Assembly: GCF_039993895.1 (NCBI RefSeq) | Contig: NZ_CP121194.1 | Location: 1,364,001-1,428,000, forward strand | Source of the DNA: Edaphobacter paludis | GTDB lineage: Bacteria > Acidobacteriota > Terriglobia > Terriglobales > Acidobacteriaceae | Length of the DNA: 64,000 nt | Direction of reading: 5' to 3' | Shown: positions 38,992 through 60,282 of the stretch, piece by piece | Position numbering within the stretch: the stretch's first letter is position 1 | Layout of the letters: each line of letters opens with the position of its first letter | Made by a program: the position numbers and the translations under genes | The notes under the pieces: generated by a model | What the model saw: the letters and a program-made list of their open reading frames with translations, nothing else | The model's database searches: none | Told to the model about the DNA's origin: nothing

Positions 38992-39061
38992 AAATAGACG
39001 AGGCAAAGGCTATTGGAAACGCAGTGTGCGACCTGTTCCCGCATGACCATCGTCCCCTTCT

Positions 39062-41892: not shown

Positions 41893-41899
41893 GACATCC

Positions 41900-42091
41900 C
41901 TATTCCGCAACTAGCCACGGGCACCGAACGATAGCCAGGAAGGCGAAAACCTTAAGGACAAAAATAGCTATAGTCCACAATTCCTCTGGCCAAGCCCAAT
42001 CCTCTGACATGGTGAATTGCGATGAATACCCACCGCAAACTGCCTGCGGTGCTGTGAATGATTTGGAGAAGGAATATTGTGAATGTGCCAT
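41900..42091 (-). CDS. Small membrane protein, 63 residues
   Basis: A 63-residue frame starting MAHSQYSFSK with a strong ribosome-binding site, GGAGGACAGAA, directly before the ATG. The C-terminal half has a Trp-rich stretch (EDWAWPEELW) and one hydrophobic helix (TIAIFVLKVFAFLAIV). Only 14 bases separate it from the HdeD-like gene and seven from the dehydrogenase start, so it is inside the operon. Too short for most gene finders; no family recognised. Possibly an accessory subunit or regulator of the P-type ATPase. Confidence 0.65.
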   Translation of the reverse strand: MAHSQYSFSKSFTAPQAVCGGYSSQFTMSEDWAWPEELWTIAIFVLKVFAFLAIVRCPWLVAE

Positions 42092-42105
42092 TTCTGTCCT
42101 CCGGC

Positions 42106-42714
42106 CTATAGACCACGTACATGTGCTAACTCGACGACCTGGTAATCGGCGTACAACATCCGCGCTGCCGTCAGGCACTGTGCCATACCGAATGCGACCA
42201 AATAGCCGTAGATAAGCCACGCGACGTCACGGGACGAAAGACGTTCCCCAAGAACTGCTGCAGCTGCAGCATAAGTAATCAAGAAGAGCAACGCCACGCT
42301 TGCGGCCGCATAATTCCAATGCGATATTGATCGAGTGAAAGCATGCCGCGCAACAATTGATTCTGCCATGGCTGTACAAAGAGCCTGGAATGCAATGAGG
42401 TATAGAAACCAATGAAGAGGAAAGCGGTTGTAAACGACAAAGAATAGAAGGAGGCCGACCAGCACGCCGCAAGCGCCTTGAAGTCGAAGTGCAATTCGTG
42501 GACGTCGGAGAGAGACCATGAAGCTGCTGACAAAGATCACCGTGCTATCCAACACACCATATGCAGCAAGACAGAGAATTGAAACCGCAACGGCGAAGGG
42601 CATCAGTAGCAAAGTGGAGGCCATATCTGGGATCACCATGACAGCGCTGCCTACAATTAGGGCCAGCGCGCCGCGAATCAGAATTGCAATCCAAAAATGG
42701 ACATCGTTTTTCAT
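42106..42714 (-). CDS. HdeD-like (DUF308) membrane protein
   Basis: 202 residues with about six membrane helices. The start region IAILIRGALALIVGSAVMVI followed by PFAVAVSILCLAAYGVLDS resembles HdeD-family acid-resistance proteins. ATG 42,714 is preceded by GGGAGGGTT, an excellent ribosome-binding site; the longer frame to 42,873 runs through the regulatory region. First gene of the operon leading to the dehydrogenase and ATPase. Role: probably membrane stress protection, not proven. Confidence 0.75.
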   Translation of the reverse strand: MKNDVHFWIAILIRGALALIVGSAVMVIPDMASTLLLMPFAVAVSILCLAAYGVLDSTVIFVSSFMVSLRRPRIALRLQGACGVLVGLLLFFVVYNRFPLHWFLYLIAFQALCTAMAESIVARHAFTRSISHWNYAAASVALLFLITYAAAAAVLGERLSSRDVAWLIYGYLVAFGMAQCLTAARMLYADYQVVELAHVRGL

Positions 42715-42767
42715 GAGTAACCCTCCCGGATTCACATCAACAGACAAATGGCTCTCAACAACTGAGC

Positions 42768-42783
42768 GGTGAATTAGATCATG
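42768..42783. promoter_or_regulatory. CRP/FNR-type palindrome B1
   Basis: GGTGA-ATTAGA-TCATG, 61 bases upstream of the HdeD-like start. It departs from consensus at three positions but closely resembles site A (GGTGA-TTTAGA-TCACA). Confidence 0.45.
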
Positions 42784-42865
42784 ACGAACGCGGTACTCCG
42801 TATGGCCTTGGTGGCAAATCATCGGCCAGACAACCGTAAGTTTATGTGCGGATTTACAGCAGAGA

Positions 42866-42881
42866 TGTGACAACCATCACA
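42866..42881. promoter_or_regulatory. CRP/FNR-type palindrome B2
   Basis: TGTGA-CAACCA-TCACA, perfect half-sites, in the divergent promoter region, 104 bases upstream of the universal stress protein at 42,978. Confidence 0.75.
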
Positions 42882-42977
42882 CGCCCGAGTACAAGCGGTC
42901 ACACTTCAGAAAGCTTAGTGAGCAATACTCTACAAGTAATGACGAGAGGTTTTGTTCCATCGACGAAGAGGTGACAA

Positions 42978-43871
42978 ATGGCTGTGATCGGAGACCAAGT
43001 AGGACTGACGGTGGACCGCATTGTTTTGGCAACAGATTTCTCGCCGTCTTCTGAGTCGGCAACTAAATATGCAAAGCTGCTAGCCAAGCGCTTCTCTTCA
43101 AACCTCACCCTTGCTCACGTTGTAGATCTCTCAATGGCTGCCCGTTCCGAGCAAGCAGTAGTTGGGTATCCAATCGGTGATATGCGCCGAGCCAGTAGCG
43201 AAAATTTGGAACGGCTGCTCAAGGACCTGACCTCCGACAGAATTCGCGCCACGGCCCAGATACTGGAGGCCCATAATCCTGCTGCGGCGATAGTGGGTTT
43301 AGCAGAACAACTCAAGGCCGATCTGATCGTGACCGGTACACACGCGCGTCATGGATTGAATAAGGCGATCCTGGGGTCGTGCGCGGAAGGTATTTTTCGG
43401 CATGCAAGCTGTCCTGTCTTTACCGTTGGGCCAAAACTAAAGGCTCCTTCAGCGGAGAATATTGCTTTCGATAGGATCGTCTTTGCGACCGACTTCACCT
43501 CCAGCGCCGCCGAGAAAGCTGCCGTGGCTCTAGCATTCGCACAAGATAGCATGGCGACGATTTATCTCTGCCATGTTCTAAAAGACGCAGGTGCGGACAT
43601 CTCCGAGATGTTTGAACTGCAGGTCAAATTTCAGTCTGCGCTCAAAAAAATGGTCCCACAATCGACCTTGGATTGGTGCACCCCAGAATGCGTGGTGGAA
43701 TTAGGTGAAGTTGCTCCCCATATTCTTGGGCTAGCCAAGAGGGTTGGAGCTGACGTCATTATTTTGGGAGCTCGACGCAGTTCCACGTGGTTCGCACATT
43801 TAGCTGACGGCGTGGTTGGACACGTGCTTGCGAATGCCGAATGCCCCGTGATGACCATCTGCTCGAGCTAA
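42978..43871 (+). CDS. Tandem universal stress protein 2
   Basis: 297 residues, two UspA domains. The first (DRIVLATDFSPSSESATKYA) has the nucleotide loop GTHARHGLNKAILGS; the second (DRIVFATDFTSSAAEKAA) ends in GARRSSTWFAHLADG, a degenerate loop. GAAGAGGTG precedes the ATG. Divergent from the HdeD operon, with the perfect CRP-like site at 42,866 between. Likely followed in the same transcript by the deacetylase gene. Confidence 0.92.
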   Translation: MAVIGDQVGLTVDRIVLATDFSPSSESATKYAKLLAKRFSSNLTLAHVVDLSMAARSEQAVVGYPIGDMRRASSENLERLLKDLTSDRIRATAQILEAHNPAAAIVGLAEQLKADLIVTGTHARHGLNKAILGSCAEGIFRHASCPVFTVGPKLKAPSAENIAFDRIVFATDFTSSAAEKAAVALAFAQDSMATIYLCHVLKDAGADISEMFELQVKFQSALKKMVPQSTLDWCTPECVVELGEVAPHILGLAKRVGADVIILGARRSSTWFAHLADGVVGHVLANAECPVMTICSS

Positions 43872-43941
43872 ATTGCCAGACAAATTGTTCCACCTTGGTT
43901 TCCTTAAGGTGAAATACAAAGCAGCGATCCGAGACAAAACG

Positions 43942-44739
43942 ATGAAACTGAGGAAAGGATTCTTGACGAATTGGCGTCAAATGTTCGTTGTCTGTTTGCT
44001 GCTGGTGTTGTGTGGAAGGCTGATAAAAGCTCAGGAGTTTCCCATCCTTGTCTATCATCGCTTTGATTCCGCAATGCCTGGATTGACAACCGTACGAACA
44101 TCCACATTTGAATTGCAGCTCGAATGGCTCGAAGACCATCATTACCAGATACTTTCTTTACGTACAGTCACCGACAAGTTAAGGACTATGAGGGATACTA
44201 ATGCGCCGGCGGTCGCGATTACAGTCGACGATGGTCATCGTTCGATCTATGCAGAGATGTTTCCATTAATTCTCAAGCACCACATTCCGGTGACTCTATT
44301 TATCTACCCCTCCGTTATCTCAAATGCTTCCTATGCTCTTACATGGGAACAAATTCGACAAATGAAGCGATCCGGTCTGGTCGATGTCCAGTCCCACACT
44401 CTCTGGCATCCGAACTTTCGAAAAGAGCGGGCACGGCTTTCGGATGCTGAATATGAAGCTTTTGTTATTAAGCAACTGACACGTTCTAAGGATATCCTTT
44501 CCAGTCGGTTGGGTGGCCAAATAGATAGTCTCGCTTGGCCTTTTGGAATCCACAATTCTTATCTCGAAAACGCGGCCCAGCGTGCCGGATATAAAACCGC
44601 ATTTGCGTTAGGAGGGGCCCCCGCCCGTGCCGGCGGTAATATGCTCGCCATCCCACGAATACCGGTCTCAGACAACGATACCGGTGCAAGGTTCTATCGA
44701 TTGTTGATGGACCCGAGAAGAAATAGGAGAGAGAAGTAA
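43942..44739 (+). CDS. Exported polysaccharide deacetylase (NodB domain)
   Basis: 265 residues with an N-terminal signal or anchor (FVVCLLLVLCGRLIKA). NodB-domain motifs: the catalytic VDDGHRSIY (motif 1), the metal-binding H-x3-H in SHTLWHPN (motif 2) and SLAWPFG (motif 3). FPILVYHRF near the start is typical of the PgaB/IcaB-type group acting on N-acetylglucosamine polymers. I chose ATG 43,942; a TTG at 43,873 is possible. Its stop overlaps the start of the hydrolase gene (TAATG), so they are translationally coupled. Confidence 0.88.
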   Translation: MKLRKGFLTNWRQMFVVCLLLVLCGRLIKAQEFPILVYHRFDSAMPGLTTVRTSTFELQLEWLEDHHYQILSLRTVTDKLRTMRDTNAPAVAITVDDGHRSIYAEMFPLILKHHIPVTLFIYPSVISNASYALTWEQIRQMKRSGLVDVQSHTLWHPNFRKERARLSDAEYEAFVIKQLTRSKDILSSRLGGQIDSLAWPFGIHNSYLENAAQRAGYKTAFALGGAPARAGGNMLAIPRIPVSDNDTGARFYRLLMDPRRNRREK

Positions 44740-46034
44740 TGCAAATGCTTGTTCGACATTACCTGCTCGTTCTTTTGGTGTTGTTGGCATCATCGGCCTC
44801 TCAGGCGAGTGATGGACGAGTGATCGATGCAAGCACTCATATCGGGATCCCAAATGCTACGGTTACTGTCGGGAACAGCGTCGTTACTACCGATGGCAGC
44901 GGTAGGTTTCATTTCAAAGAGGCGAGCGGGACGATTATGGCTCGAGCGCCCGGGTACCGCGCATCTCGTGCGATGGCGAAGGACACGGTGACGGACGGCG
45001 CAACTATCCCGCTCATTTCATTTTTTCCTAGGGCGCTGTATTTAACGGTGTATGGAATCGGTTCACAGACCTTGCGAGGTGGAGCCATGGCGTTTGCGCG
45101 AGGCGGACAGATCAATGCACTGGTGATCGATTTGAAGGGAGACAGGGGTCTTATCCCCTATCCAACTGCAGTGTCCCTGGCTCGGAGGAGCGGTGCGCGC
45201 CGTCTTACAACAATCCGTGATTTGCCTCGACTTGCCAGCGAACTCCATCGGGCGGGTATTTACGCCATCGCGAGGATTGTTGTCTTCAAAGACAATCCCC
45301 TTGCCGAAGCGCGGTCAGATTTGGCTGTAAAGCGGCGTGACGGCAGTCTATTTCGAGATCGGGAGGGGCTCGCATGGGTGGATCCATTTCAAGCAGAAGT
45401 CCGAACATATAATATCGAAATCGCCGTCGAAGCTGCTGAGGCGGGCTTCGATGAGATTCAGTTCGACTACGTACGGTTTCCCGATGTATCACAAAAACTG
45501 CGCTTTGCTCAAGCGCCAACAGAAGAGATGCGTGTGCAGGCGATTGATCGCTTTCTTACAGAGGCGCGTGAGCGGCTAGTGCCTTACAACGTCTTTCTTA
45601 GCATCGATATCTTCGGCTATGTCTGTTGGAATACTAATGACACAGGTATAGGGCAACAACTTGAGCAAATCGTCAAGATTGTCGACTATCTTTCGCCCAT
45701 GGTATATCCATCCGGATACAAATATGGGATACCCGGCTGCCAAGAGCCCGTCTCTCATCCCTATGAGATCGTCCACGATACTTTGGAGAATGCGCGACGA
45801 CGTGCAAATGTATCGCCTCAGCGATTTCGTCCATGGTTGCAAGCGTTCAGGGACTACGCATTTGATCATCGTGCCTTCGGCCCGTCTCAAGTCGCAGAGC
45901 AGATTCGTGCAGCTGACGAGTTTGGAACAGACGGATGGATGCTCTGGAACCCTCACAATCGATATGACGATCTTGGATTAGATACTCTTCATCCTCTCAC
46001 TAGAACGGCAATACCACCTCGGCCGGACCAGTAG
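44739..46034 (+). CDS. DUF4015-type putative glycoside hydrolase
   Basis: 431 residues with signal peptide, an N-terminal carboxypeptidase-regulatory-like sandwich (RVIDASTHIGIPNATVTVG, TDGSGRFHFKEA; about residues 27-90), then a TIM-barrel-like domain of the DUF4015 kind: INALVIDLKGDRGLIPYPTA, DEIQFDYVRFPD, SIDIFGYVCW, VDYLSPMVYPSGY, FRPWLQAFRDYA. Acidic residues in the FDYVRFPD and SIDIFG strands could be catalytic. Coupled to the deacetylase gene, so both probably act on the same extracellular polysaccharide. Confidence 0.82.
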   Translation: MQMLVRHYLLVLLVLLASSASQASDGRVIDASTHIGIPNATVTVGNSVVTTDGSGRFHFKEASGTIMARAPGYRASRAMAKDTVTDGATIPLISFFPRALYLTVYGIGSQTLRGGAMAFARGGQINALVIDLKGDRGLIPYPTAVSLARRSGARRLTTIRDLPRLASELHRAGIYAIARIVVFKDNPLAEARSDLAVKRRDGSLFRDREGLAWVDPFQAEVRTYNIEIAVEAAEAGFDEIQFDYVRFPDVSQKLRFAQAPTEEMRVQAIDRFLTEARERLVPYNVFLSIDIFGYVCWNTNDTGIGQQLEQIVKIVDYLSPMVYPSGYKYGIPGCQEPVSHPYEIVHDTLENARRRANVSPQRFRPWLQAFRDYAFDHRAFGPSQVAEQIRAADEFGTDGWMLWNPHNRYDDLGLDTLHPLTRTAIPPRPDQ

Positions 46035-46166
46035 CGTCATGGTGAGCGCGAACGCTTTGTAAGAGGTGTTTCGGATGACGCAAACAAGGGTTTCGATTTC
46101 CATAATCGTTAGAGACGGATTTCTGGGATGCAGACGAGAATCTTCCCGTGAACCATCGATTGTTCT

Positions 46167-46499
46167 CTATGTTGTTGATGGAGTCGTGTATTTCTCTCTC
46201 AATTCGGCGGGCCACTTCCAGTTTCTTATTTCGGGTCTGTCCTGCCCTTCGGTGTATGCGTAGGCAATACTTTCGATGATCTGCCCTTTTCCAGATAGCA
46301 GTTCGAAATACTAGCAGGCGCTCCATGGCCCGGACCGCCAATAGGCATCCATTCTCTGAAGGTCTTGAGCAGTCAATACCCGATCGGAAATCGCCAATGG
46401 TGATTCGTTGCCCTGGGATAATTCCATAACTTTCACGCTCCTACTCTTAAATTCGACTGGTCCCAATCTTGAGTTAGCACCTCTCAGGGGGTCTACCAA
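46167..46499 (-). pseudogene. Remnant of phosphoketolase (xfp-like), internally deleted
   Basis: Only the two ends of a phosphoketolase are recognisable. The upstream part reads LTAQDLQRMDAYWR, the typical beginning of the enzyme, and breaks at a stop. Further down, in another frame, is GQDRPEIRNWKWP, matching the conserved C-terminus (usually HGEDMPEIRNWKWP). Roughly 750 central residues are missing. A plausible original start is ATG 46,427. A CRP-like palindrome sits upstream at 46,540. The gene once would have split xylulose- or fructose-phosphate into acetyl-phosphate. Confidence 0.7.
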
Positions 46500-46539
46500 A
46501 ATCTGATAACTAATATTGGGGCAGTCTTTTCACGTAGAT

Positions 46540-46555
46540 GGTGACGATTGTCACA
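46540..46555. promoter_or_regulatory. CRP/FNR-type palindrome C
   Basis: GGTGA-CGATTG-TCACA, one mismatch from the consensus, about 120 bases upstream of the phosphoketolase remnant on the minus strand. Confidence 0.6.
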
Positions 46556-46668
46556 ATGAGTTGGTGGTGGATCTGGGTAATTGCTGCGAACAGAACTAGT
46601 TTATTAGCCCTGATCAATCGGCACTCTGATGAGTGCTAACGCCCTACCATGCACATCTTTTGGAGTCT

Positions 46669-46684
46669 TGTGATGCGCGTCACA
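46669..46684. promoter_or_regulatory. CRP/FNR-type palindrome D
   Basis: TGTGA-TGCGCG-TCACA, perfect half-sites, centred 107 bases upstream of the decaheme cytochrome start at 46,784. Confidence 0.75.
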
Positions 46685-46783
46685 GTCGATTTCCTACATC
46701 GAGTCGTATCCTTCACTCGTTATTCAAGTGGGTAGGTAATCCTCTGTATGTCGTACTCTCGCGTCCTTTGAGGAAAATTGCAC

Positions 46784-47713
46784 ATGCGGCATTGGTTCTA
46801 TACGCTCGCGATTCTACTATGGATGAGCGGGGCAGGGGGAGTCGTGTCTGCGCAGGCGGATGGCGCGTTGCAACCGCAGACTGCAATATCTTCCCGAAAG
46901 GCAGTTTTGAACCCGACAGATTACGTCGGTTCGGAAACCTGTGCCCTGTGCCACGCCGATCTCACAAAAAAGTTCGACTCCAATCCTCATTCGAAACTTG
47001 TGCTAATGCACGGCGGCAAAGGTGTTACTTGCGAGAGCTGCCATGGTTCGGCCAAAGCCCACGTGGAGTCGGGTGGTGATGTAACCAAGATCTTTCGATT
47101 CACAAAGGCAACACCAAAAGAGGTGGATCAAAAGTGCCTCAGTTGCCATCTGGGGACACACGCTAACTTCGATCGTTCCGCTCACGGCGCAGCCGGCGTC
47201 AGTTGTATCGGTTGCCACAGCAATCATGCCTTCCAGAGTGAGGCGCATCTCTTGAAGGTAGAAGAGCCGAAGTTGTGCTACAGCTGCCATACGGATGTGA
47301 AGGCCGCCTTCGCCCAGCCCTTTCATCACAAGGTAAATGAAGGTCTGCTTGTTTGCACTGATTGTCATAATCCCCATGGCACTTTCCAGGACAAACTGCT
47401 CAAGACGAATGCAGATCAGAATGCCGTCTGCACGAAGTGTCATGCGGAGACTCTTGGTCCATTTGTCTACGAACATCCTCCGCTGAAGCTGGAGGGTTGC
47501 ACCTCTTGCCATCTTCCTCATGGTTCGCCGAATGCAAGGCTGCTCAACCGGAGCAACGTCAATTCGCTGTGCCTGCAGTGTCATTCGGCGTCGATGAACT
47601 TTACGGCACCCGGTACGCCTTCGTTCCATAACCAGGCTAATCAGTATCAGGCCTGCACCAACTGCCACGTTCAGATACACGGCTCAAACGCCAGCAACGT
47701 TTTCTTCAAGTAA
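46784..47713 (+). CDS. Decaheme c-type cytochrome, DmsE/MtrA-like
   Basis: 309 residues with a signal peptide and ten CxxCH heme motifs between residues about 53 and 295: CALCH, CESCH, CLSCH, CIGCH, CYSCH, CTDCH, CTKCH, CTSCH, CLQCH, CTNCH. This count and size match MtrA/PioA/DmsE, which sit in the periplasm and inside the outer-membrane barrel to carry electrons across the outer membrane. ATG 46,784 has TTGAGGA upstream; a TTG at 46,778 is also in frame. Next gene is the barrel partner. First gene of a five-gene cluster to 52,395. Confidence 0.92.
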   Translation: MRHWFYTLAILLWMSGAGGVVSAQADGALQPQTAISSRKAVLNPTDYVGSETCALCHADLTKKFDSNPHSKLVLMHGGKGVTCESCHGSAKAHVESGGDVTKIFRFTKATPKEVDQKCLSCHLGTHANFDRSAHGAAGVSCIGCHSNHAFQSEAHLLKVEEPKLCYSCHTDVKAAFAQPFHHKVNEGLLVCTDCHNPHGTFQDKLLKTNADQNAVCTKCHAETLGPFVYEHPPLKLEGCTSCHLPHGSPNARLLNRSNVNSLCLQCHSASMNFTAPGTPSFHNQANQYQACTNCHVQIHGSNASNVFFK

Positions 47714-47724
47714 GGGAGGGCCAC

Positions 47725-49917
47725 ATGATGAGCTCAAATTCCATGATGTCGCTCCTCCCGAATCGATGGCGCATGGCTTTGGCTGTTTCGTCCATCTTCA
47801 TCACTGTGGGTCTCATTATGGGTACTCCGTCAAGCGCACAGGATAAATCCCCCGTAACCATGCCAACCCCTTCGGACAATATTCGTTATGGATACGTCAT
47901 CCATCAGTCGGTCGATCTCGGCGGACACATCGTGGATCATTCCGGGAGTGGCGCAGTTTACGACACGATGGTCAACCTGCAGTCAGGGCCACGCATACTC
48001 AATCAATCCCTGGATTTGCGCGCTGTGAATCCATCCCATGCGATCCTGTTCGATCACCTCTCCACGAGCAGCTTCGGCTACGGAGGCGATCCCAACAGTG
48101 TCTCGTTTCTCAACGTCGTCAAGGGTAAACTTTACGATTTTCGGGGAAGCTTTCGCCGGGATCGCCAGTATTTCGACTACAACCTATTGGCTAATCCCCT
48201 GATCCCACCGACGTCGAGCCCCTACGTTCCTCTCCTGGACACGCCACATCTCTACAACACTGTGCGTCGCATGACCGACCTCAATCTCACATTGGCTCCG
48301 CTGTCAATTGTCAGTGTGCGCCTCAGCTACAACCACAACATCAGCGAAGGGCCTTCCAACAGCACACTTCACTATGGCACCGAAGCCCTTCTTAGCCAGT
48401 TCTGGCGCAACTCGACTGACAGTTGGATAGTCGGCGCTGACTGGAAACCCGTCCAGCGCACCTCATTCAGTTACGACGAGTTCATTACACATTACAAAGG
48501 GAACACCAGTTGGCAGCTTACGGGGCTTAACTACCAGCTATCCAATGGAACTCCGGTCAGCCTGGGAATAGACATATCTTCTATCTGGAAGACTCCCTGC
48601 GCAGCGCCCTTCAGGGTAGATGGCACAGTCAGTCCAACTTGCAACGGCTATCTCGCTTATAGCCGTTCCGCACCCACACGCACACTAATTCCAACCGAGC
48701 AACTTCGTTTCCAGAGTGCATCTATTCCAAATATAACGATGAATGGACGGCTCCTCTACAGTGCTGCCACCAACAATCTGGATCATTTAAACGAAATGTT
48801 CAACGGCCTTTCTTCGAAGATCCGTGAATCGCTCATAACGGGGGCTGCCCGTGTCCATCGCATCAACGTCAATGGCGACTACAGCCTCACATGGCAGATC
48901 ACTCCTACGATTATTGCCACAAATCTCTTCGACTTCTGGGATTTCCGCATGCCGGGAACGAACAACTTCACCACGACTACCTATGCCGGGACTACAATGC
49001 TTGCACCTCCTGGTGCCGCAACCACGACAACAGCGTCTGATTACCAATTTCTCAATCAGAAGACGAAAACCAACACGTTTGTGGTTGCGTGGGATGTCAC
49101 GGGCCGTGCACGTGTGTCGGTCGGCTACCGCTATCGCAGCCGCATTATCACGGATGCTGGCGGAGATTTCATACCCATTCACGAAAACTGGGGACTCTTC
49201 GGAGTCTCGCTCAGGCCAACGCCTCAATGGCGCATCAACCTTAATGTAGATGCCATGTACGCCGACAATGCCTTTACACGCATCAGCCCACGCCAGTTGC
49301 AACATTACATTATGCGGACCACCTACAAGCCGCATCTATGGCTCACTTTTTCCGGAACGGTCAACATCCGCGAGAGCCGAGACAATATTCAGACGGTTAA
49401 TCATCTGGAACACAATCGCGATTTTTCTTTCGGGACGTCGATCTCTCCCAGTGAGCATTGGTCACTTGACCTAAACTACGCCTACGACAGCGTGTACTCC
49501 AGCACCATTGAGTGCTATGCGTCTACTCCCGCTCCGTCTTTATCTGGAATAGCACCGCCAGTCTGCGTTGCGGCAGGAACTCCGTGGCTCAGCACCGGAT
49601 ATTACAATGCGCCTACGCAATTCGGCTCTATCGGATTCATGTTGTCGCCCGTCAAGCGTGTACGTCTCAATGGGGGCTACCAGATGTCGACAGTCAACGG
49701 TACAAGTAACTTCATCAATATTCGTCAGGTGAGCGGCTCACTTCAGTCGCAGTTTCAGTCGCCATACGCCAATCTAGTTATAGATATTGCGCCCAACTGG
49801 TCCTGGAAGGCCAACTACAACTATTACGGCTATGGTGAAGGTTCACCCATCGGCCCCACGCTGCCTCGGAGCTTTCGCGGGAATGTCTACACTCTCGCGG
49901 TTCATTATGCTTTCTAG
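47725..49917 (+). CDS. Outer-membrane beta-barrel, MtrB/PioB-like partner
   Basis: 730 residues with a signal peptide (VSSIFITVGLIMGTPSSA). The mature part is a long series of amphipathic strands rich in Tyr, Trp and Ser, ending in the outer-membrane signature YTLAVHYAF. Position directly after the decaheme cytochrome (11 bases) and size fit the MtrB/PioB barrel that encloses MtrA. The sequence itself is divergent, so the assignment rests on context and architecture. GGGAGGG precedes the ATG. Confidence 0.8.
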   Translation: MMSSNSMMSLLPNRWRMALAVSSIFITVGLIMGTPSSAQDKSPVTMPTPSDNIRYGYVIHQSVDLGGHIVDHSGSGAVYDTMVNLQSGPRILNQSLDLRAVNPSHAILFDHLSTSSFGYGGDPNSVSFLNVVKGKLYDFRGSFRRDRQYFDYNLLANPLIPPTSSPYVPLLDTPHLYNTVRRMTDLNLTLAPLSIVSVRLSYNHNISEGPSNSTLHYGTEALLSQFWRNSTDSWIVGADWKPVQRTSFSYDEFITHYKGNTSWQLTGLNYQLSNGTPVSLGIDISSIWKTPCAAPFRVDGTVSPTCNGYLAYSRSAPTRTLIPTEQLRFQSASIPNITMNGRLLYSAATNNLDHLNEMFNGLSSKIRESLITGAARVHRINVNGDYSLTWQITPTIIATNLFDFWDFRMPGTNNFTTTTYAGTTMLAPPGAATTTTASDYQFLNQKTKTNTFVVAWDVTGRARVSVGYRYRSRIITDAGGDFIPIHENWGLFGVSLRPTPQWRINLNVDAMYADNAFTRISPRQLQHYIMRTTYKPHLWLTFSGTVNIRESRDNIQTVNHLEHNRDFSFGTSISPSEHWSLDLNYAYDSVYSSTIECYASTPAPSLSGIAPPVCVAAGTPWLSTGYYNAPTQFGSIGFMLSPVKRVRLNGGYQMSTVNGTSNFINIRQVSGSLQSQFQSPYANLVIDIAPNWSWKANYNYYGYGEGSPIGPTLPRSFRGNVYTLAVHYAF

Positions 49918-49971
49918 TTTTAACAATCGGACGTCATTTCAGTCCGCCAAACTACCAGAGGAGTATTCCAG

Positions 49972-50292
49972 ATGATGAAGTACATTACTCACGGTACCGC
50001 AATTGGCTTAGTTATATTGTTCGCTGCGCTTACGAGTTTCGGTCAAAGTGGTGTCGATATCTACAAAGCCAAATGCCAGATGTGTCATGGCGCTGACGGA
50101 TTTGGTAACACGCCGGCGGGTAAGGCTATGAAAACACGCCCACTCAATTCCCCCGATGTTTTGAAAGAGTCGGACACCGATCTTATTACCGTGATCAAGA
50201 ATGGAAAAAACAAGATGCCTGCTTTTTCCGGCAAACTCACTGATCCGCAGATCCACGACATCATAGAGTATGTTCACACTTTGCAAAAGTGA
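49972..50292 (+). CDS. Small periplasmic cytochrome c
   Basis: 106 residues: signal peptide (IGLVILFAALTSFGQ), one heme site CQMCHG, and a methionine ligand region KNKMPAFSG, then the C-terminal helix IHDIIEYVHTLQK. A class I cytochrome c that could shuttle electrons between the cytochrome b/c complex and the decaheme cytochrome or a terminal oxidase. GAGGAG precedes the start. Confidence 0.93.
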   Translation: MMKYITHGTAIGLVILFAALTSFGQSGVDIYKAKCQMCHGADGFGNTPAGKAMKTRPLNSPDVLKESDTDLITVIKNGKNKMPAFSGKLTDPQIHDIIEYVHTLQK

Positions 50293-50366
50293 AAGACATT
50301 ACGGGCAAGAAGACGCGGTCGCTGAAATGACGCCAACTAAAATCTCGCAAACCAAGGAGTGGATTA

Positions 50367-50915
50367 ATGGAACTGATACCAGAGACTAAGGACGAATTTA
50401 AAGTGGAACCTTCGGGGCGTCGTTCATTTCTGGGTGCGTTGCTCGGGATGAGTGCAGTAGGGGTGAGTGCGCTGTTGGCGATTCCACTCGTGCGGTTTTC
50501 CACGTATCCGCTGCGTAGACGTGCGACAGAAACCGACTGGTCAGACGTAGGACCGGTGGACGAATTCAACTCGCTCACGGAGCCGCTAGCGAAGACCATA
50601 ACTTTGGAACGCCGAGATGCCTGGCAGACCACTTCGTCGCAGACCGCGGTCTATGTATTGCCATCGAAGACTGGGCAATTCCGTATATTGTCACCCATCT
50701 GCCCACATCTGGGATGCTCGGTTCGTTGGGAAGGGACTCAAGATAAATTCATTTGTCCATGCCACTCTGGATCGTTTACGGCAGGTGGACAACGCATTGC
50801 AGGGCCGCCTCCTCGCTCTATGGACATCCTTGAATCTAGAGTGGAGGGCGGAATGTTGAAGGTGCGCTACCAATATTTTCGCCAATTAGTTTCCAACAAA
50901 GAAGTAATGGCCTGA
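50367..50915 (+). CDS. Rieske iron-sulfur protein
   Basis: 182 residues. A twin-arginine-type leader GRRSFLGALLGMSAVG forms the membrane anchor. Cluster ligands are in CPHLGC (Cys-x-His) and CPCHSGSF (Cys-x2-His), with the two disulfide cysteines. It transfers electrons from quinol to cytochrome c in bc-type complexes. Immediately followed by the cytochrome b/c gene (13 bases). Confidence 0.94.
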   Translation: MELIPETKDEFKVEPSGRRSFLGALLGMSAVGVSALLAIPLVRFSTYPLRRRATETDWSDVGPVDEFNSLTEPLAKTITLERRDAWQTTSSQTAVYVLPSKTGQFRILSPICPHLGCSVRWEGTQDKFICPCHSGSFTAGGQRIAGPPPRSMDILESRVEGGMLKVRYQYFRQLVSNKEVMA

Positions 50916-50928
50916 GGCGGATGAGTCT

Positions 50929-52395
50929 ATGACGAACCAACCTTCACCTAAGTCGACAGGGAGCCCCAACATCGCAACCAAGCTCGATGACTGGCTGGAC
51001 CAACGCACCGGCATAGACTCGATCTTGCATGAGACTCTCGATGAGCCTATTCCGGGAGGCGCCAGCTGGGCTTATATTTTTGGCTCGGGGTTGCTCTTCC
51101 TCTTTGTTTCGCAAGTCATTACCGGCGTCTTCCTTGCCCTATACTATGTTCCGTCAGCCGATCACGCGCATACAGTCGTATCGTACATTGTGAAAGAAGT
51201 GACCTCGGGATCATTCATTCGTAGCATTCATGCGTATGGATCGAGTGGCATCATTATTCTGCTTTTGCTGCACATCGGGCAGACCATCCTCTATGGTTCC
51301 TACAAAGGGCGTCGCGAACTGCTTTGGCTCTCAGGCTGTATTTTGTTGGCGCTGATGCTTGGAATGGCCTTCACCGGCTATCTACTACCCTGGGATGAGA
51401 AAGCGTATTTTGCTACCGCTGTCGGAACAAACCTGGTTGCAGAAGTGCCTTTTATCGGCCCAATATTACAGAAGCTTTTACGGGGAGGTGATCAAATGGG
51501 CACTTTGACGCTCTCCCGTTTCTATGTGCTGCACGTCTTCGTGTTGCCAGCAATGATTATAGGTTTTGTCGCAGCGCATGTGTTTTTCTTTCGCAAAGCT
51601 GGAGCAGCCGGCCCGATCAGAGAGGATCCAATCAAACCCAAGCTTCCGGCCGTTCCGTTTTATCCCCGTCAGGTATTCATGGATGCGGTCTTTGCAGTGG
51701 TGTTGATCGGGATACTGGCGATCATCGCAAAAGCCATTCCGATGAGCTTGGGACCAGCTGCTAACCCGGCGGACACGCATTTTCTCCCACGTCCCGAATG
51801 GTATTATCGACCAGCCTTTCAATGGCTTAAGTATCTGAGTGGGCACTGGTCTTTGATGGGTGGCATTTTTCTGCCAGCGTTGCTCGCGTTGATCTTTGCC
51901 GGAGCGCCATTTCTGGATCGGAGGCTCGAACGTCGTCCACGGCGAAGGCCAATCTCGGTGGGAGCATTCGTTATTTTCTTGCTCGCCTATATATCTCTCG
52001 GCATAGCCAGCTACAGAGATGACTACCGCGACCCTGGCATGGCGGTGCAGATGCACAAGCAGGATGAGGATGCGAAGGCCTTCATGCAGAAGCCTTTCGT
52101 CCCGGAAGCGGCTGCGGGAAGCCCAGTAGCCGCGCTGGCTGCTGCTGATCCGAAGGTGCTGAAGGGACTAGCTATCTTTCAGGCTCAGTCATGCAACTCA
52201 TGCCACGGAGAAGGTGGGATAGGAACAGCGGCTGCTGGTCCGTTGACAGGTGTCGGCCTAAAGTACACAGATGCGCAACTTATCGCGCTGATTCATGCTC
52301 CCAATAGCTCTATGACCAACGGCGGCATGACTCCGGTCACTTTGAAGGCGGAGGATCTCGAGGCCTTGGCGGCATATCTAGACACACTGCGCTGA
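50929..52395 (+). CDS. Cytochrome b fused to a C-terminal cytochrome c domain
   Basis: 488 residues. The cytochrome b part has paired heme-ligand histidines (HAYGSSGIIILLLLH and HVFVLPAMIIGFVAAH, each 14 residues apart) and the Qo-site PEWYYRPAFQWLKY motif. After a hydrophobic helix it continues into a cytochrome c domain with CNSCHG at about residue 424. With the Rieske protein it forms an alternative quinol:cytochrome c oxidoreductase. Last gene of the cluster. Confidence 0.94.
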   Translation: MTNQPSPKSTGSPNIATKLDDWLDQRTGIDSILHETLDEPIPGGASWAYIFGSGLLFLFVSQVITGVFLALYYVPSADHAHTVVSYIVKEVTSGSFIRSIHAYGSSGIIILLLLHIGQTILYGSYKGRRELLWLSGCILLALMLGMAFTGYLLPWDEKAYFATAVGTNLVAEVPFIGPILQKLLRGGDQMGTLTLSRFYVLHVFVLPAMIIGFVAAHVFFFRKAGAAGPIREDPIKPKLPAVPFYPRQVFMDAVFAVVLIGILAIIAKAIPMSLGPAANPADTHFLPRPEWYYRPAFQWLKYLSGHWSLMGGIFLPALLALIFAGAPFLDRRLERRPRRRPISVGAFVIFLLAYISLGIASYRDDYRDPGMAVQMHKQDEDAKAFMQKPFVPEAAAGSPVAALAAADPKVLKGLAIFQAQSCNSCHGEGGIGTAAAGPLTGVGLKYTDAQLIALIHAPNSSMTNGGMTPVTLKAEDLEALAAYLDTLR

Positions 52396-52708
52396 CCCGC
52401 AATCATCATTCGCGACTAGACATCGCTTTACGGCAGACCACAAGCTCATCGAATCTGCCAGAGTGTCAAGAGTTATTAAGCAATGATTTCACACAAAGCG
52501 TGCGTTGCTACTACTTTCATTGTTGACAAAACTTCGACCGCACTTAATGCAGGCTGCCACCAGATTCCATGAGCCGTTAAAGATGTATGGATGTTTTTTT
52601 GAATATTTATGGTGTTCAGTTGATTGGTTTTCCTATTGTGATGACCATCACATTTTATTGCCTACAACCCAAGATATGGTGAAGATCTGATCCTTCGGAG
52701 GAACGAAG
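52396..52708. other. Intergenic region with promoter for universal stress protein 3
   Basis: 313 bases, visibly AT-rich, with no credible ORF. It contains the CRP-like site E. No strong terminator hairpin for the cytochrome cluster was seen. Confidence 0.5.
52637..52652. promoter_or_regulatory. CRP/FNR-type palindrome E
   Basis: TGTGA-TGACCA-TCACA, perfect half-sites, centred 64 bases upstream of the universal stress protein start at 52,709. Confidence 0.75.
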
Positions 52709-53596
52709 ATGAGACTATTTGAGGACCACCTTGAATTTGGCTCCAACTCGATATTACTTGCGACAGATTTGTCTTCATCTTCTGACACGGCAACGGTGTA
52801 TGCAGCGCAACTTGCGCGAAGATATAACGCCAAGATTACCGCCTTAGAAGTCTTCGATTATGCCTGGGCAGGTAGCCCAAAGACCGGAGGGATCCCCATC
52901 GGTCTTGCCGTCATGGAATCTGCAGCCGAAGATGCCTTGGAGGAATTGCGGGTTAATTTGTGCAAGGAAAAGGTGCAGTGCGATGCCATGCTCGTTGATG
53001 GCGATCCAGCAAGTGAAATCCTGAAGGCAATTGCCCAAAAGAATGTTGATGTTGTCGTCTTAGGGACGCATGGTAAAGAGGGATTCGATCGTTTCGCCTG
53101 GGGTTCTGTGGCTGAGGAGGTCTTACGAAAAGCGAGTTGCGCGGTTCTAATTGTTGGCCCCAAAGTTCCCAGGCCCACACAGTACGAATTAACACTTCGG
53201 AATTTAGTATTTGCTACAGACTTTAGTCCTCCATCGAGGAGAGCCGCCTCTTACGCGTTCACGCTAGCCTCTGATTTCGACGCATGTCTGCACCTGGTTC
53301 ACATTTTGCCCTCTTCGATTGAGGGATGTTCAGATGAAACAGAACTTGCAAATGCTTCTAAGCAAGCTTTGATAGTTATAAGTCAGAACCAAACCTCGGC
53401 TTGTCACAATTTAAGCAATGAAGTCAGTTATGGTGAACATGTTGACGACGCGATTCTTGCGCGTGCAGACGTGGACAGTGCCGATTTGATTGTCTTGGGA
53501 GTACGGAGGGCATCCCAGTTGGCATCTCATGTTCCCGACATCACATCTCACATCATTGGTGAAGCGAAATGTCCTGTTCTGACTATAAGTTCATAG
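52709..53596 (+). CDS. Tandem universal stress protein 3
   Basis: 295 residues, two UspA domains. First domain NSILLATDLSSSSDTATVYA with loop GTHGKEGFDRFAWGS; second domain NLVFATDFSPPSRRAASYA with degenerate loop GVRRASQLASH. Same layout as the other three in the island, but clearly divergent in sequence. CGGAGGAACG precedes the ATG. Convergent with the pentapeptide gene, 35 bases away. Confidence 0.9.
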   Translation: MRLFEDHLEFGSNSILLATDLSSSSDTATVYAAQLARRYNAKITALEVFDYAWAGSPKTGGIPIGLAVMESAAEDALEELRVNLCKEKVQCDAMLVDGDPASEILKAIAQKNVDVVVLGTHGKEGFDRFAWGSVAEEVLRKASCAVLIVGPKVPRPTQYELTLRNLVFATDFSPPSRRAASYAFTLASDFDACLHLVHILPSSIEGCSDETELANASKQALIVISQNQTSACHNLSNEVSYGEHVDDAILARADVDSADLIVLGVRRASQLASHVPDITSHIIGEAKCPVLTISS

Positions 53597-53631
53597 TAAT
53601 GAGGAAAGTCGAATACCGGAGGAGCTTTCTG

Positions 53632-54279
53632 TTATCCGACGCAATGCGCTGTAGGGAGGTTCTCTTTCCGGATGACAGAGATATTTGCATTCCAGACTGC
53701 ATCGGCATTAATGGTTGCATGTTTGAAGGTCGTATTTTCATCGAAAACTGCGCCTCGGAAGCTGGCTCCTAAGAGCTCTGCATAGCTCAAATCGGCTCCA
53801 GTAAGGATGGCATTACTCAGATCAGCCCCACAAAGGTTCGCGGCCCTAAGCTTTGAATCGCTCATATTTACGCCTTTGAGGTTAGCGCTCATCATATCTG
53901 CGTCGGTGAGATTGGCTTCGATAAGTATAGTACCGCGCAGATCGGAATACCTGAGTGTGGCGTGTGGCAGATTGGCTTTATGGAGATTCGCGCTTCTGAG
54001 CCTAACTCCCTTGAGGCTGGCGGTTGCAAAATCGGCTCCCTGGAGGTCTGCGCCGCGAAGATCAGCACCCGCGAGATCGGAGCCTGTGAAGTTAACATGG
54101 CTAAGATCGGCATGCCTAAAATCAGTTCCGCACAATTTTGCACCCACGAGGCTTGCATTACGTAATTGCGCACCGCGCATATCATCTCCCGCCAAATCGA
54201 GACGTATTCCCTCTGTCCCCAAAGTCTTCAGCCAGACTGCATGCAGTTCAAGTCTCTTCGAGATTGAAAAGTCTTTCAT
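53632..54279 (-). CDS. Pentapeptide-repeat protein
   Basis: 215 residues of which about 150 are A(D/N)LxX-type pentapeptides: GADLRGADLQGADFATASLK and LTDADMMSANLKGVNMSDSK, about thirty repeats. They form a right-handed quadrilateral beta-helix. Some family members (Qnr, MfpA) protect DNA gyrase by mimicking DNA; many others have unknown roles. ATG 54,279 has GGAG seven bases upstream; ATG 54,291 adds four residues. No export signal, so cytoplasmic. Own CRP-like site upstream at 54,407. Confidence 0.9.
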   Translation of the reverse strand: MKDFSISKRLELHAVWLKTLGTEGIRLDLAGDDMRGAQLRNASLVGAKLCGTDFRHADLSHVNFTGSDLAGADLRGADLQGADFATASLKGVRLRSANLHKANLPHATLRYSDLRGTILIEANLTDADMMSANLKGVNMSDSKLRAANLCGADLSNAILTGADLSYAELLGASFRGAVFDENTTFKHATINADAVWNANISVIRKENLPTAHCVG

Positions 54280-54406
54280 GACTAGCTCCATCTTTGTCAG
54301 GTCAAGGTCCAGACCGCTGTTAAGGGCTGTATCAATTGACGACGAAACTTGCCCCGGATTTTTGAGATCCTAAAGAAAGAATCTACGAGTCAGGGTGTGC
54401 AAGATC

Positions 54407-54422
54407 TGTGATGTCGATCACA
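54407..54422. promoter_or_regulatory. CRP/FNR-type palindrome F
   Basis: TGTGA-TGTCGA-TCACA, perfect half-sites, 135 bases upstream of the pentapeptide-repeat gene and just beyond the end of glgX. Confidence 0.72.
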
Positions 54423-54492
54423 GTGCGCAATCGATATGATTGCACCCAGACGATTCAGATGCAAGCATCGGAGAAGCGGAATGTCAGATGGA

Positions 54493-56679
54493 TCAATTTG
54501 TAGACTCTCCGAAGTTTTCTTCTTCTGAAGATCGAGGCAGACAGTCTATTTGTATCGAATGGTTATTCATGATGTAGTTGTAATACAAGATGACGATGGA
54601 TCGCGGATTGACCGCATAACTAGTCCCGTCGACCCGTATTCCATTTCTTTCCTCAACGATATCGTCAGGAGAGGGCAGCGAGGTGTCAATTAGACGTAGC
54701 CAGCCTCCGTTCGGTTCGTTCGTGACAGGAGGGAGTTCAAACTCCAATGGTTTCCAATAGGCATTGATCGCGATGTAATGGACCTGGCCAACCGATGAGT
54801 CTTGCAATGAGAAGGCAATACTATGGGAGTTGCTGTTCCAGTCAGGCTTGCCCAGTTTAACCCCATGCCATTCGATACGGGTCCTGCTCAAATACTCTTC
54901 CAGAGTCTCTTGTCGATCTCCGCCTCTCCCGCCAAAGTTGAGTCGAATGCGAATCATGAGCTGTACAAACCGGAGGAGATCGCAGTTGGCAGCACAGAGC
55001 CCCCAATCGAACCAAGAGGTCTCGTTATCCTGGCAGTATGGATTGTTATTGCCGGATTGCGTTCGTCGAACTTCATCTCCCATAAGTATCATCGGCGTAC
55101 CGGCCGAGATCAGTGTGAGAGTGAAGAAATTCTTCATCTGCTGCGCCCGGAGGATCGTAATCTCGGCATTGTTAGTTGGGCCTTCGATTCCGCAGTTCCA
55201 ACTGAAATTTACGTCTGTGCCATCGCGGTTAAGCTCATGGTTTGCTTCATTGTGTTTGCTGTTGTAGGAGACCAGATCATTGAGAGTGAAGCCGTCATGG
55301 CACGTAACGAAGTTGATACTCTGCGCTGGCGAATGAGTGGCCGTTCTATACAGATCGAGGCTACCGGTTAAACGTTCCCTAAGCTTAAGGACAGTATTCG
55401 GATCACCTCTAACAAAACATCGAATGTCATCGCGAAATTGTCCGTTCCATTCCTTCCACTTGTCCTGTCCGAAACTGCCGACCTGATATAAGCCACCTTT
55501 GTCCCATGCCTCAGCAATTAGCTTCGTACCTGCGAGGACGGGATCCGAATCGATTTCCCAAACGATCGGAGAATTTACCATTGGCTCACCTGACTCGCTT
55601 CGGGAAAAGATCGAGGCGAGATCAAAACGAAAGCCGTCTACGTGCATCTCTGAGACCCAATATCTTAGACTATCGAGAATGAGGCGTTTGACCACTGAAT
55701 GGTTTGCCTTGAGAGTATTGCCGGCACCAGTGTAGTTTGCATACGTAGATTTATCCTTATTAAGTAAATAGTAAAAACTGTTTTCTAGTCCACGAAAACA
55801 TAGAGTGGGGCCGTGCTCATCAGACTCAGCAGTGTGGTTGTATACAACATCGAGGATTACCTCAATCCCAGCACGGTGGAGTTCCTTTACCATAGTTCTA
55901 AATTCATCGAGACAAGCAATAGGATCACTCGAGGTACTATAGGCCAGATGAGGAGCAAAAAAAGACACTGGACTATAGCCCCAGTAATTGCTAAGTCCCG
56001 GCGGAGCGTCTTGGGCGTCAAACTGGAAGATGGGTAGTAGTTCGACCGCCGTGATCCCTAACTCTTGGAGATACGAAATCTTTTCGATGACCCCAAGATA
56101 GGTACCTCGCTTCACCCTATCTAGACCCGAGGCATGGTGTCGTGTAAAACCTCCCACATGCATCTCGTAGATGACAGTCTCGCGGAAGGATCGGTTGAGT
56201 GGCCTGTCTCCCTCCCAATCGAAGTTGCTGAGATCAGCCACAACGGTCTTCATTGCGGAAGCCGCATTATTCCCTGGTTGGCTGGAAGCCGCGCGGCTAT
56301 AGAGTTTACCAACGGCAACACTCTTGCCATAAGGATCGATCAGGACTTTCTGACTGTCAAAACGATGTCCGCTTGAAGGATTGTCTGGGCCATAGGCGCG
56401 ATATCCATAAAGTTGTCCCGACCGTATTGCGGGTACAAAGATGTGCCAGTAATGAGACGTGCGATGGAGATCTGGATCAAGACGGATGATGCGGGCTGGC
56501 TGAAGGGAATCCACATGGTCAAACAGAACAATCTCCATTCCCGTGGCGGTAGCTGAAAAAACGCTAAAGTTTGTACCGTCAGGACTCACTGTAGGGCCAA
56601 GGGGATAGGGATGGCTGACAGATCTCTCCTGAGAGGTAAATTTATGCGGCTCTGCACGTACGTGATGCCAGTTACCCAT
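54493..56679 (-). CDS. glgX: Glycogen debranching enzyme GlgX-type
   Basis: GH13 isoamylase that removes short side chains left by phosphorylase. N-terminal CBM48-like part (YPLGPTVSPDGTNFSVFSAT); catalytic regions DVVYNHTAE, DGFRFDLAS (nucleophile Asp), LIAEAWD (acid Glu) and VTCHDGFTLNDLVSY. I chose ATG 56,679, preceded by GGAG; an ATG at 56,769 would add 30 residues and overlap glgP by 13 bases. 728 residues, normal. Third gene of the usp-glgP-glgX unit. Confidence 0.92.
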   Translation of the reverse strand: MGNWHHVRAEPHKFTSQERSVSHPYPLGPTVSPDGTNFSVFSATATGMEIVLFDHVDSLQPARIIRLDPDLHRTSHYWHIFVPAIRSGQLYGYRAYGPDNPSSGHRFDSQKVLIDPYGKSVAVGKLYSRAASSQPGNNAASAMKTVVADLSNFDWEGDRPLNRSFRETVIYEMHVGGFTRHHASGLDRVKRGTYLGVIEKISYLQELGITAVELLPIFQFDAQDAPPGLSNYWGYSPVSFFAPHLAYSTSSDPIACLDEFRTMVKELHRAGIEVILDVVYNHTAESDEHGPTLCFRGLENSFYYLLNKDKSTYANYTGAGNTLKANHSVVKRLILDSLRYWVSEMHVDGFRFDLASIFSRSESGEPMVNSPIVWEIDSDPVLAGTKLIAEAWDKGGLYQVGSFGQDKWKEWNGQFRDDIRCFVRGDPNTVLKLRERLTGSLDLYRTATHSPAQSINFVTCHDGFTLNDLVSYNSKHNEANHELNRDGTDVNFSWNCGIEGPTNNAEITILRAQQMKNFFTLTLISAGTPMILMGDEVRRTQSGNNNPYCQDNETSWFDWGLCAANCDLLRFVQLMIRIRLNFGGRGGDRQETLEEYLSRTRIEWHGVKLGKPDWNSNSHSIAFSLQDSSVGQVHYIAINAYWKPLEFELPPVTNEPNGGWLRLIDTSLPSPDDIVEERNGIRVDGTSYAVNPRSIVILYYNYIMNNHSIQIDCLPRSSEEENFGESTN

Positions 56680-56756
56680 CCTGCTCTCCGTTAGACGCAA
56701 ATGCTCATATCTTTGGCTCGCCCTAACACTGTAAGTCCAAATGGTGCGCTCGGTTA

Positions 56757-59270: not shown

Positions 59271-59324
59271 TGGGTACTCCGGATGTTGATCATGGTGTGG
59301 AACCAGATACATCTTGATCCGGAC

Positions 59325-60272: not shown

Positions 60273-60282
60273 AAATGTCAGG

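Follow-up and report, generated by a model that had tools for sequence, protein, structure and literature searches.

An MtrAB-type conduit and a Rieske/cytochrome b complex in one operon of Edaphobacter paludis: a candidate route for extracellular electron transfer

By what route could a soil acidobacterium exchange electrons with substances outside the cell, and in which direction would they flow? These questions are raised by a five-gene operon in Edaphobacter paludis, in a stretch of 64,000 nucleotides (contig NZ_CP121194.1, positions 1,364,001 to 1,428,000 of the forward strand) that is called the window here; coordinates refer to the window unless they are given for the genome. The operon (46784-52395) holds genes for a decaheme cytochrome and an outer-membrane barrel, followed by a small cytochrome c, a Rieske protein and a cytochrome b. 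The manner in which electrons pass into or out of an outer-membrane conduit at the inner membrane decides the energy yield of extracellular respiration. Our reading, to which we give somewhat better than even chances, is that the operon encodes a quinone-linked extracellular electron transfer chain, most likely outward and probably serving as an outlet at low oxygen. If this is true, the abundant and poorly understood soil Acidobacteria would gain a concrete, regulated route for the cycling of iron and humics, and the organism might respire substances outside the cell when the air runs out. The role in iron and humics cycling was left open in the relevant parts of an earlier genome paper, where mtrA/mtrB stood without complete mtr/omc operons (PMC5900883).

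The operon and its conduit

The operon consists of the following genes.

46784..47713, plus strand: DECA, periplasmic ten-heme c-type cytochrome of the MtrA/DmsE family (ten CxxCH, TIGR03508, 6r2q_A).
47725..49917, plus strand: BARREL, predicted MtrB-fold outer-membrane beta-barrel of 730 amino acids (AlphaFold2 model, PDB structure match).
49972..50292, plus strand: CYTC, monoheme class I cytochrome c, presumed periplasmic shuttle (PF13442/PF00034).
50367..50915, plus strand: RIESKE, [2Fe-2S] protein (PF00355, cluster motif).
50929..52395, plus strand: CYTB, cytochrome b (b6 and subunit IV regions) with a C-terminal monoheme cytochrome c (PF00033, PF00032, PF13442).

The initial annotation had seen five genes running in one direction with short gaps, and this is borne out: all lie on the same strand in the order DECA-BARREL-CYTC-RIESKE-CYTB, every frame is open, and the intergenic gaps are 11, 54, 74 and 13 base pairs (bp). 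DECA starts at a TTG at 46778 or, more likely, at the ATG at 46784. No oxidase, oxidoreductase or rhodanese gene is found within the operon, according to the list of open reading frames (ORFs) and Pfam.

Heme motifs, searched for as TGY-N6-TGYCAY, occur 17 times in the window (4.3 expected), and ten of these lie in DECA at 46940-47668, which confirms the decaheme with ten CxxCH of the initial annotation. The protein scores 256.5 bits against the NCBIfam model of DmsE-family decaheme cytochromes (TIGR03508, cut-off 192.2), and its residues 45-305 align with MtrA of the solved Mtr complex (6r2q chain A) at an E-value of 1.3e-36. An AlphaFold2 model of DECA alone is poor (predicted local distance difference test, pLDDT, 56.6). 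In the PDB sequence table the molecule name of 6r2q_A is cystathionine beta-synthase, apparently a labelling error; the entry title is that of the Mtr complex.

BARREL has no Pfam or NCBIfam match at E 0.01, but barrels diverge fast, and a missing match does not exclude membership of the MtrB family. A search of its profile against PDB sequences also returned no MtrB, the top match being OmpX (E 0.059). It is the predicted structure that identifies BARREL as MtrB-type. Structure prediction had been proposed as a check and was run for the barrel part: the AlphaFold2 model has a mean pLDDT of 79.8 (25-row alignment), and its closest PDB structure by a wide margin is MtrB (6r2q_B; Foldseek E 9.3e-14, VIA Z 26.4, the next structure having a Z of 16.6), with 567 residues aligned at 3.8 A and 12% identity. 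The 730-residue outer-membrane barrel is thereby confirmed, with the predicted fold of MtrB, and DECA and BARREL are supported, by profile and predicted structure, as a likely MtrAB-type pair. Elsewhere in the same genome there are two more seven-heme ORFs, of 391 and 598 amino acids, with no recognised barrel gene adjoining (L158, G000 C1:3362001-3380000; G and L numbers are our designations of genomes and loci, G000 being the genome of E. paludis).

The inner-membrane partner and its relatives

The other three genes had been taken for a monoheme cytochrome c, a Rieske protein and a cytochrome b/c fusion, and Pfam agrees for all of them. CYTB has the histidine pairs 101/115 and 202/217 (14 and 15 apart) and a PEWY motif, RIESKE has the cluster motif CPHLGC...CPCHSGSF, and CYTC has the heme motif CQMCH and a methionine in KMPAF. 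The term "alternative bc-type complex", which had also been used, holds in part: by its motifs and by PF00355, PF00033 and PF00032 this is a Rieske/cytochrome b complex, while alternative complex III is ruled out as its identity since Rieske and cytochrome b are present. The complex is also distinct from the housekeeping-type bc complex. A second Rieske/cytochrome b set in the genome lies beside a cytochrome oxidase at ~1.243-1.249 Mb (L140; COX1 at 1242951), and its Rieske cluster reads CPCHGGAY. Genes resembling those of alternative complex III, recognised by a look at the sequence, follow a pentaheme protein gene at a further place (L159, G000 C1:115001-128000), upstream of COX1 at 132181, so that there are apparently three quinol:cytochrome c oxidoreductases in the genome. 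A COX1-like gene at G000 C1:2183154-2185110 extends over several frames with TAG and TGA and is apparently broken.

The Rieske protein of the operon is without the tyrosine and serine of high-potential Rieske proteins. When these two residues are missing at the cluster the potential is lower, as in menaquinol types, which suggests that the operon Rieske is of lower potential and would fit menaquinol.

Relatives were considered at three levels. Among near genomes, a ten-heme ORF adjoins the barrel in all 13 barrel regions of relatives. What comes after the conduit varies: four regions have a bc-type module (G005, G015, G025, G026), three a NapC-like pentaheme protein (G009, G012, G017) and two a triheme protein (the one tested matches PF03264), and four have no recognised module, one of these (L033) being cut by a contig end. 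The five-gene order of the window recurs in five further genomes (G005, G015, G025, G026 and G167), and elsewhere in the phylum such conduits are linked to another, distinct line of cytochrome b as well; for both reasons the linkage of conduit and bc complex is not due to chance.

The second level is a scan of named loci with one peptide pattern, which covers 103 relatives by their best 80; the titles of 79 place them in Acidobacteria or a group within it, while that of L044 gives only a bacterium. Here the NapC/NrfH-like pentaheme protein is the usual module (49 loci). Rieske and CYTB follow at two loci only, L044 and L114, which are apparently the G005 and G015 contigs again and so not independent. 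An 11-heme-type protein alone is found at four loci, no module at 11, and none but with a short flank at 12; two loci in which no barrel ORF was called (L082, L083) are counted apart, and L041, with a barrel match of only 92 residues, is left out of the neighbourhood counts. The one pentaheme protein tested (from L030) matches NapC/NirT (PF03264), with an NrfH match below cut-off. CYTC is present with 48 of the 49 NapC-type conduits and with both bc-type ones. Since the conduits of close relatives usually carry a NapC/NrfH-like module, the inner-membrane module is, judging by gene neighbourhoods, exchangeable on one conduit type. The link to a quinol:cytochrome c oxidoreductase that the initial annotation had drawn is supported by the gene order in five more genomes; most close relatives carry a different module, but one still of the quinol-dehydrogenase type (PF03264). 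The refuting condition set beforehand, homologues regularly joined to an unrelated reductase, thus had an intermediate outcome. At six loci (L086, L088, L096, L106, L116, L117) the conduit goes with an 11-heme protein and a 13-heme protein carrying a b561-type domain (PF01292, tested for L086), which may be a third inner-membrane module.

At the third level, 396 acidobacterial genomes were searched, of which 89 have a match to the barrel profile and 273 a match to CYTB. A cytochrome b lies within 3 kilobases (kb) of the barrel in at least 11 of the 89 barrel-bearing genomes (G000, G015, G167, G283, G407, G325, G333, G372, G293, G413, G049), where by our own estimate (about two cytochrome b genes per ~5 Mb) well under one such pairing is expected by chance. 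The last eight of these, from G283 onward, are of a second type, with the order DECA-BARREL-Rieske-cytochrome b (~358 amino acids)-nine-heme cytochrome and in most cases CYTC (L123-L130). This nine-heme type occurs in several acidobacterial families; its lineage was included on account of its position near barrels, and its linkage therefore reflects how it was selected.

CYTB of the window was placed in a maximum-likelihood tree with 22 rows of cytochrome b, where it falls in a 12-row clade (support 96/98); the housekeeping cytochrome b of the same genome, G201 and the nine-heme type lie outside this clade. All 12 rows stand beside an outer-membrane electron protein: seven beside an MtrAB-type conduit, four beside Cyc2, and one (G309) beside a 690-amino-acid protein that has three CxxCH and resembles a barrel in its C-terminal part. 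Six of the seven MtrAB-type rows have the gene order of the window, and in G126 cytochrome c, Rieske and CYTB come before DECA and a barrel-like ORF; for G309 and G126 the barrel nature was read from the sequence, and the barrel profile matches neither. The clade consists of the top of a ranking plus G005, G025 and G026, whose linkage was known beforehand, and the four Cyc2 rows form one clade, so that the cases are not all independent. Branch order inside the 12-row clade is not resolved, and the housekeeping and G201 rows carry a long-branch warning. In the ranking of CYTB matches over the phylum, ten of the best 11 (at least 54% identity, own included) are conduit-linked, the exception being G207 (L141), and none of the next 13 is (40-46% identity; L137, L143-L154; three of these stretches are shorter than 10 kb).

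At five loci of the best 11 (L133-L136, L142) the protein beside the bc complex carries AVPSFARQT[GD]LSCNVCH in an ORF of 439-476 amino acids. This fits the description of Cyc2, with the motif AxPxFAR[Q/K][T/Y] as published by Keffer et al. 2021 (PMC8406198) upstream of CxxCH and a length above 365 amino acids. By the published motif these proteins are probably Cyc2-type; two of them have no Pfam or NCBIfam match.

A shared Crp/Fnr-type site

Upstream of the operon lies a palindrome of the Crp/Fnr type. Its core, GTGA-N6-TCAC, was spotted by eye in the promoter and tested afterwards, so that it is a post-hoc motif whose test is its clustering in the genome and its occurrence in other genomes. 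The sites from the site scan and the island around them are listed below (no strand assigned).

46669..46684: TGTGATGCGCGTCACA, a palindrome of the Crp/Fnr type without mismatch, ~100 bp ahead of the ATG of DECA; the genome has 10 such perfect sites.
46540..46555: another palindrome of this type, with one mismatch.
42866..42881: perfect palindrome, lying both upstream of a gene for a universal stress protein (42978, plus strand) and at the start of ORF 42106-42873 (minus strand).
52637..52652: perfect palindrome, followed downstream by a gene for a universal stress protein (52709).
54407..54422: perfect palindrome, upstream of a gene for a pentapeptide-repeat protein (53632-54291, minus strand).
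60257..60272: one-mismatch palindrome at the start of a minus-strand run of universal stress protein, glucan phosphorylase and glycogen debranching enzyme.
37984..60347: window part of the regulon island (Pfam/NCBIfam and sites).

With up to one mismatch, the window has seven TGTGA-N6-TCACA sites against 1.9 expected, a number reached in none of 100 shuffles, and all lie at or beyond 38976. The 4.04-Mb genome has 10 perfect sites, nine of them within 49.6 kb (1406866-1456406), whereas a reversed control pattern occurs once. Genes adjoining a perfect or one-mismatch site encode universal stress proteins, the conduit, the pentapeptide-repeat protein, the run of glucan phosphorylase and debranching enzyme, P-type ATPases and a PAS-domain histidine kinase. 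The perfect palindrome at 52637..52652, upstream of the next gene, suggests that the conduit operon ends before it.

The site recurs in relatives. The core is found upstream of DECA at 59 of 74 named loci, as compared with 5.2% of 1480 random 510-bp windows from the same loci. Among the 13 other conduit loci it is present in seven (the window, L029, L030, L032, L035, L122 and L123) and was not found upstream of DECA in six (L028, L031, L036, L037, L038, L040). A Crp/Fnr-family regulator lies within 2 kb of DECA at 30 of 68 loci, of which 28 are divergent, 29 have the cysteine pattern C-x2-C-x7-9-C and 29 have the site; at 90 bits, none of 13 cytochrome b loci without a conduit has such a regulator. 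In E. paludis itself a homologue of this regulator is encoded in the island, 41 kb from DECA (genome 1451662-1452351; PF00027, PF13545, PF00325), with the N-terminal cysteine cluster CQNCTPKNQHAFC, whose spacing differs from that of E. coli FNR. Given the clustering of sites in the genome, the conserved core and the regulator near DECA in relatives, the conduit appears to be a member of a regulon here and in many relatives.

The classical FNR box was tried as well. TTGAY-N4-RTCAA occurs five times in the window against 6.6 expected, which is not above chance, TTGA-N6-TCAA is found upstream of none of 74 decaheme genes, and the looser TTG-N8-CAA upstream of 12 of 74, against 6.8% of random windows. 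By these counts the shared site is Crp-like and not a classical FNR box.

The regulon island covers ~55 kb (window 36000-64000, genome 1402976-1458044) and holds seven universal-stress-type proteins (three by Pfam, the rest by a look at the sequence), two P-type ATPases, the kinase and the regulator. Within the window, the universal stress proteins are at 37984-38904, 42978-43871 and 52709-53596 (Pfam) and at 59325-60347 (sequence look), together with a P-type ATPase, an alcohol dehydrogenase, a glycogen debranching enzyme and a phosphorylase (Pfam/NCBIfam). GC content and GC skew of the window drop at ~35-36 kb, and all palindrome sites of the window lie beyond the drop.

Direction of electron flow and known systems

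In the outward chain, the Rieske/cytochrome b-c complex of the inner membrane would exchange electrons with menaquinone, the fused cytochrome c domain and CYTC would ferry them across the periplasm, and the decaheme, seated in the MtrB-type barrel, would conduct them through the outer membrane to an acceptor outside, possibly Fe(III), humics or a soluble mediator. A bc complex, in contrast to modules of the NapC or CymA type, could conserve energy by a Q-cycle, and this would be of advantage where acceptors are of high potential, for instance in acidic soils rich in iron. A regulator of the Crp/Fnr type, a type frequently associated with low oxygen, would turn on the outlet along with the stress genes. 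Menaquinol lies near -80 mV (PMC13390432) and the iron couple goes from ~0 at pH 7 to +770 mV at pH 2 (PMC8406198), so that at acid pH there would be room for an outward, proton-translocating bc step. Geobacter is described as switching its inner-membrane proteins, ImcH and CbcL, by acceptor potential (PMC5877670).

The outward direction taken alone we put at a little over half; it is favoured by the NapC/NrfH-type modules, the hydrogenases near conduits, the FNR-like regulator and the lack of a RuBisCO or Cyc2 match in the genome itself. A [NiFe]-hydrogenase large subunit is found in the flank (up to 10 kb) of 12 of the 80 named loci, eight times on the conduit strand and four times on the opposite one, and in G012 (L029) it precedes DECA on the same strand, separated from it by a single small gene. 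[NiFe] hydrogenase genes lie within a few kb of the conduits of L042, L054, L056, L077, L104 and L029, and also of that at G003 C1:2369851-2371389, which suggests that extracellular respiration is driven by hydrogen in these relatives; the hydrogenase is on the opposite strand in L042, L054, L056 and L077, and the large subunit in L104 is Hyd-2-like. The E. paludis genome has [NiFe]-hydrogenase large-subunit matches in two frames beside hyp-like genes (L160, G000 C1:565001-577000), possibly because of a frameshift or sequencing error.

A number of points weigh against the outward reading. The barrel is sporadic, being present in 14 of 41 near genomes. The part of Eichorst 2018 on this subject argues against taking the acidobacterial mtrA/mtrB as a sign of iron reduction of the Shewanella or Geobacter type (PMC5900883). 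The core site is present in only three of six genomes with a bc-type conduit (window, G015 and G167; not G005, G025 or G026). The signal would be oxygen or nitric oxide, going by the regulator family and the co-regulated genes, and oxygen sensing by the regulator is putative. CYTC looks His/Met-ligated and is perhaps of high potential, which would suit the bc complex and make the step to low-potential decahemes an uphill one.

Other points belong to an inward chain, in which Fe(II) or another donor outside would supply electrons through the conduit to terminal oxidases and, uphill via the bc complex, to the quinone pool. It has precedents in Pio/Mto and in the Fe(II) chain of Acidithiobacillus, and we consider it unlikely, though to be taken seriously. 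Cyc2, the Fe(II) oxidase type, is the nearest other pairing of the bc clade and favours the reverse direction, five of the best 11 bc complexes standing beside a protein with its motif. Of the genomes with a bc-type conduit, G026 has a strong Cyc2 match elsewhere (54%) and G015 a RuBisCO-family match. E. paludis itself has three near-full-length COX1 genes, and the initial annotation's remark that an extracellular MtrC/OmcA-type cytochrome is missing holds for the whole genome, where the best OmcA/MtrC-family score is 20.7 bits against a cut-off of 209.3; this is as in Pio/Mto, and MtrAB alone is reported to pass electrons in vitro (PMC4245776). Against an inward chain stand the missing Cyc2 and RuBisCO matches in the genome, the NapC/NrfH-type modules of most related conduits, some with a [NiFe] hydrogenase nearby, and the operon's lack of an oxidase gene; a Crp/Fnr-type regulon with stress genes also fits low oxygen better.

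It is rather improbable that the chain is bidirectional, its direction following the redox state so that it buffers the quinone pool. Both Cyc2 and MtrAB-type conduits do occur together with the bc clade, and related Mto and Mtr proteins are described as running in opposite directions (PMC13390432), but the reading is an unspecific one. There is also a slight chance that the operon is dedicated to one particular soluble compound (DMSO-like, selenite/tellurite or another detoxification) and not to general extracellular respiration. The decaheme belongs to a family named after DmsE, and the ext operon of Geobacter also has a Rieske protein and a porin-like protein (PMC5877670); CYTB matches the model of ExtP, from the Geobacter selenite/tellurite operon (NCBIfam NF040969), at 189.8 bits, but this is below the cut-off of 290, and the operon has no oxidoreductase or rhodanese gene. 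That the neighbours are unrelated, or the conduit a decaying remnant, is hardly credible in spite of the sporadic barrel, given the open frames, the short gaps, the order kept in five more genomes and the regulatory site conserved in relatives.

Returning to the outward chain, a wider proposal can be made, which is tentative and to which we give somewhat less than even chances. A distinct acidobacterial bc-type clade may be a plug-in, energy-conserving inner-membrane module for unrelated outer-membrane wires (MtrAB-type, Cyc2 and a triheme cytochrome-barrel); in this lineage it would stand in for the NapC-type quinol dehydrogenase of the same MtrAB conduit, and conduit and module would both be wired into a Crp/Fnr-type low-oxygen survival regulon. 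The result would be an extracellular respiration that translocates protons and matches the high potentials of iron in acid soils.

MtrAB as such is known in Acidobacteria. Genes for mtrA/mtrB or porin-cytochromes are in print (Lipson 2013, PMC3669403; Eichorst 2018, PMC5900883; PMC7399161; PMC10654088), as is iron reduction at low oxygen by Acidobacteria (PMC8790237), and the pertinent passages of this literature remark that complete mtr/omc operons are missing. These are the same genes, in the same bacterial family, as those described here, and Edaphobacter aggregans, Silvibacterium bohemicum and Terracidiphilus gabretensis also appear in our named scan. In their sections on mtrA/mtrB the published accounts say nothing of a bc complex linked to the conduit, of an inner-membrane module that can be exchanged or of a regulatory site in common, and the combination of MtrAB with a bc complex, a bc clade shared with Cyc2 and the regulon was not found in the open-licence literature searched.

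Compared with Shewanella MtrAB (6r2q), the decaheme is of the same family, the barrel has the same predicted fold and the genes are likewise adjacent. The differences are that the genome has no MtrC over cut-off, that the barrel is only 12% identical, and that the operon has a bc complex and a monoheme c; in Shewanella the inner-membrane partner of Mtr is CymA. PioAB of Rhodopseudomonas and MtoAB of Sideroxydans are similar in having a decaheme and a barrel without MtrC and a small periplasmic redox protein in the cluster (PMC10654088, PMC13390432). However, PioC is a high-potential iron-sulfur protein and ImoA a tetraheme inner-membrane protein, and in the available text of the Pio/Mto comparison (PMC13390432) the terms "Rieske" and "cytochrome bc" are absent. 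The Geobacter cluster extHIJKLMNOPQS resembles the operon in combining a Rieske protein (ExtO), a cytochrome b (ExtP), multiheme cytochromes and a porin-like protein, but ExtI is small and porin-like, and the authors do not regard the cluster as analogous to the porin-cytochrome clusters known so far (PMC5877670). The Cyc2 and bc loci of other Acidobacteriaceae (L133-L136, L142) share a cytochrome b-c that is 54-56% identical, with Rieske adjoining; they differ in the outer-membrane part, which is monoheme and Cyc2-type with no decaheme-barrel pair, and in having four CxxCH on the cytochrome b fusion. As inner-membrane partners, the relevant parts of the cited literature name the NapC/CymA, ImoA or CbcL/ImcH types; if our reading is true, a bc complex from a clade that occurs with several unrelated conduits would join them as a partner that conserves energy.

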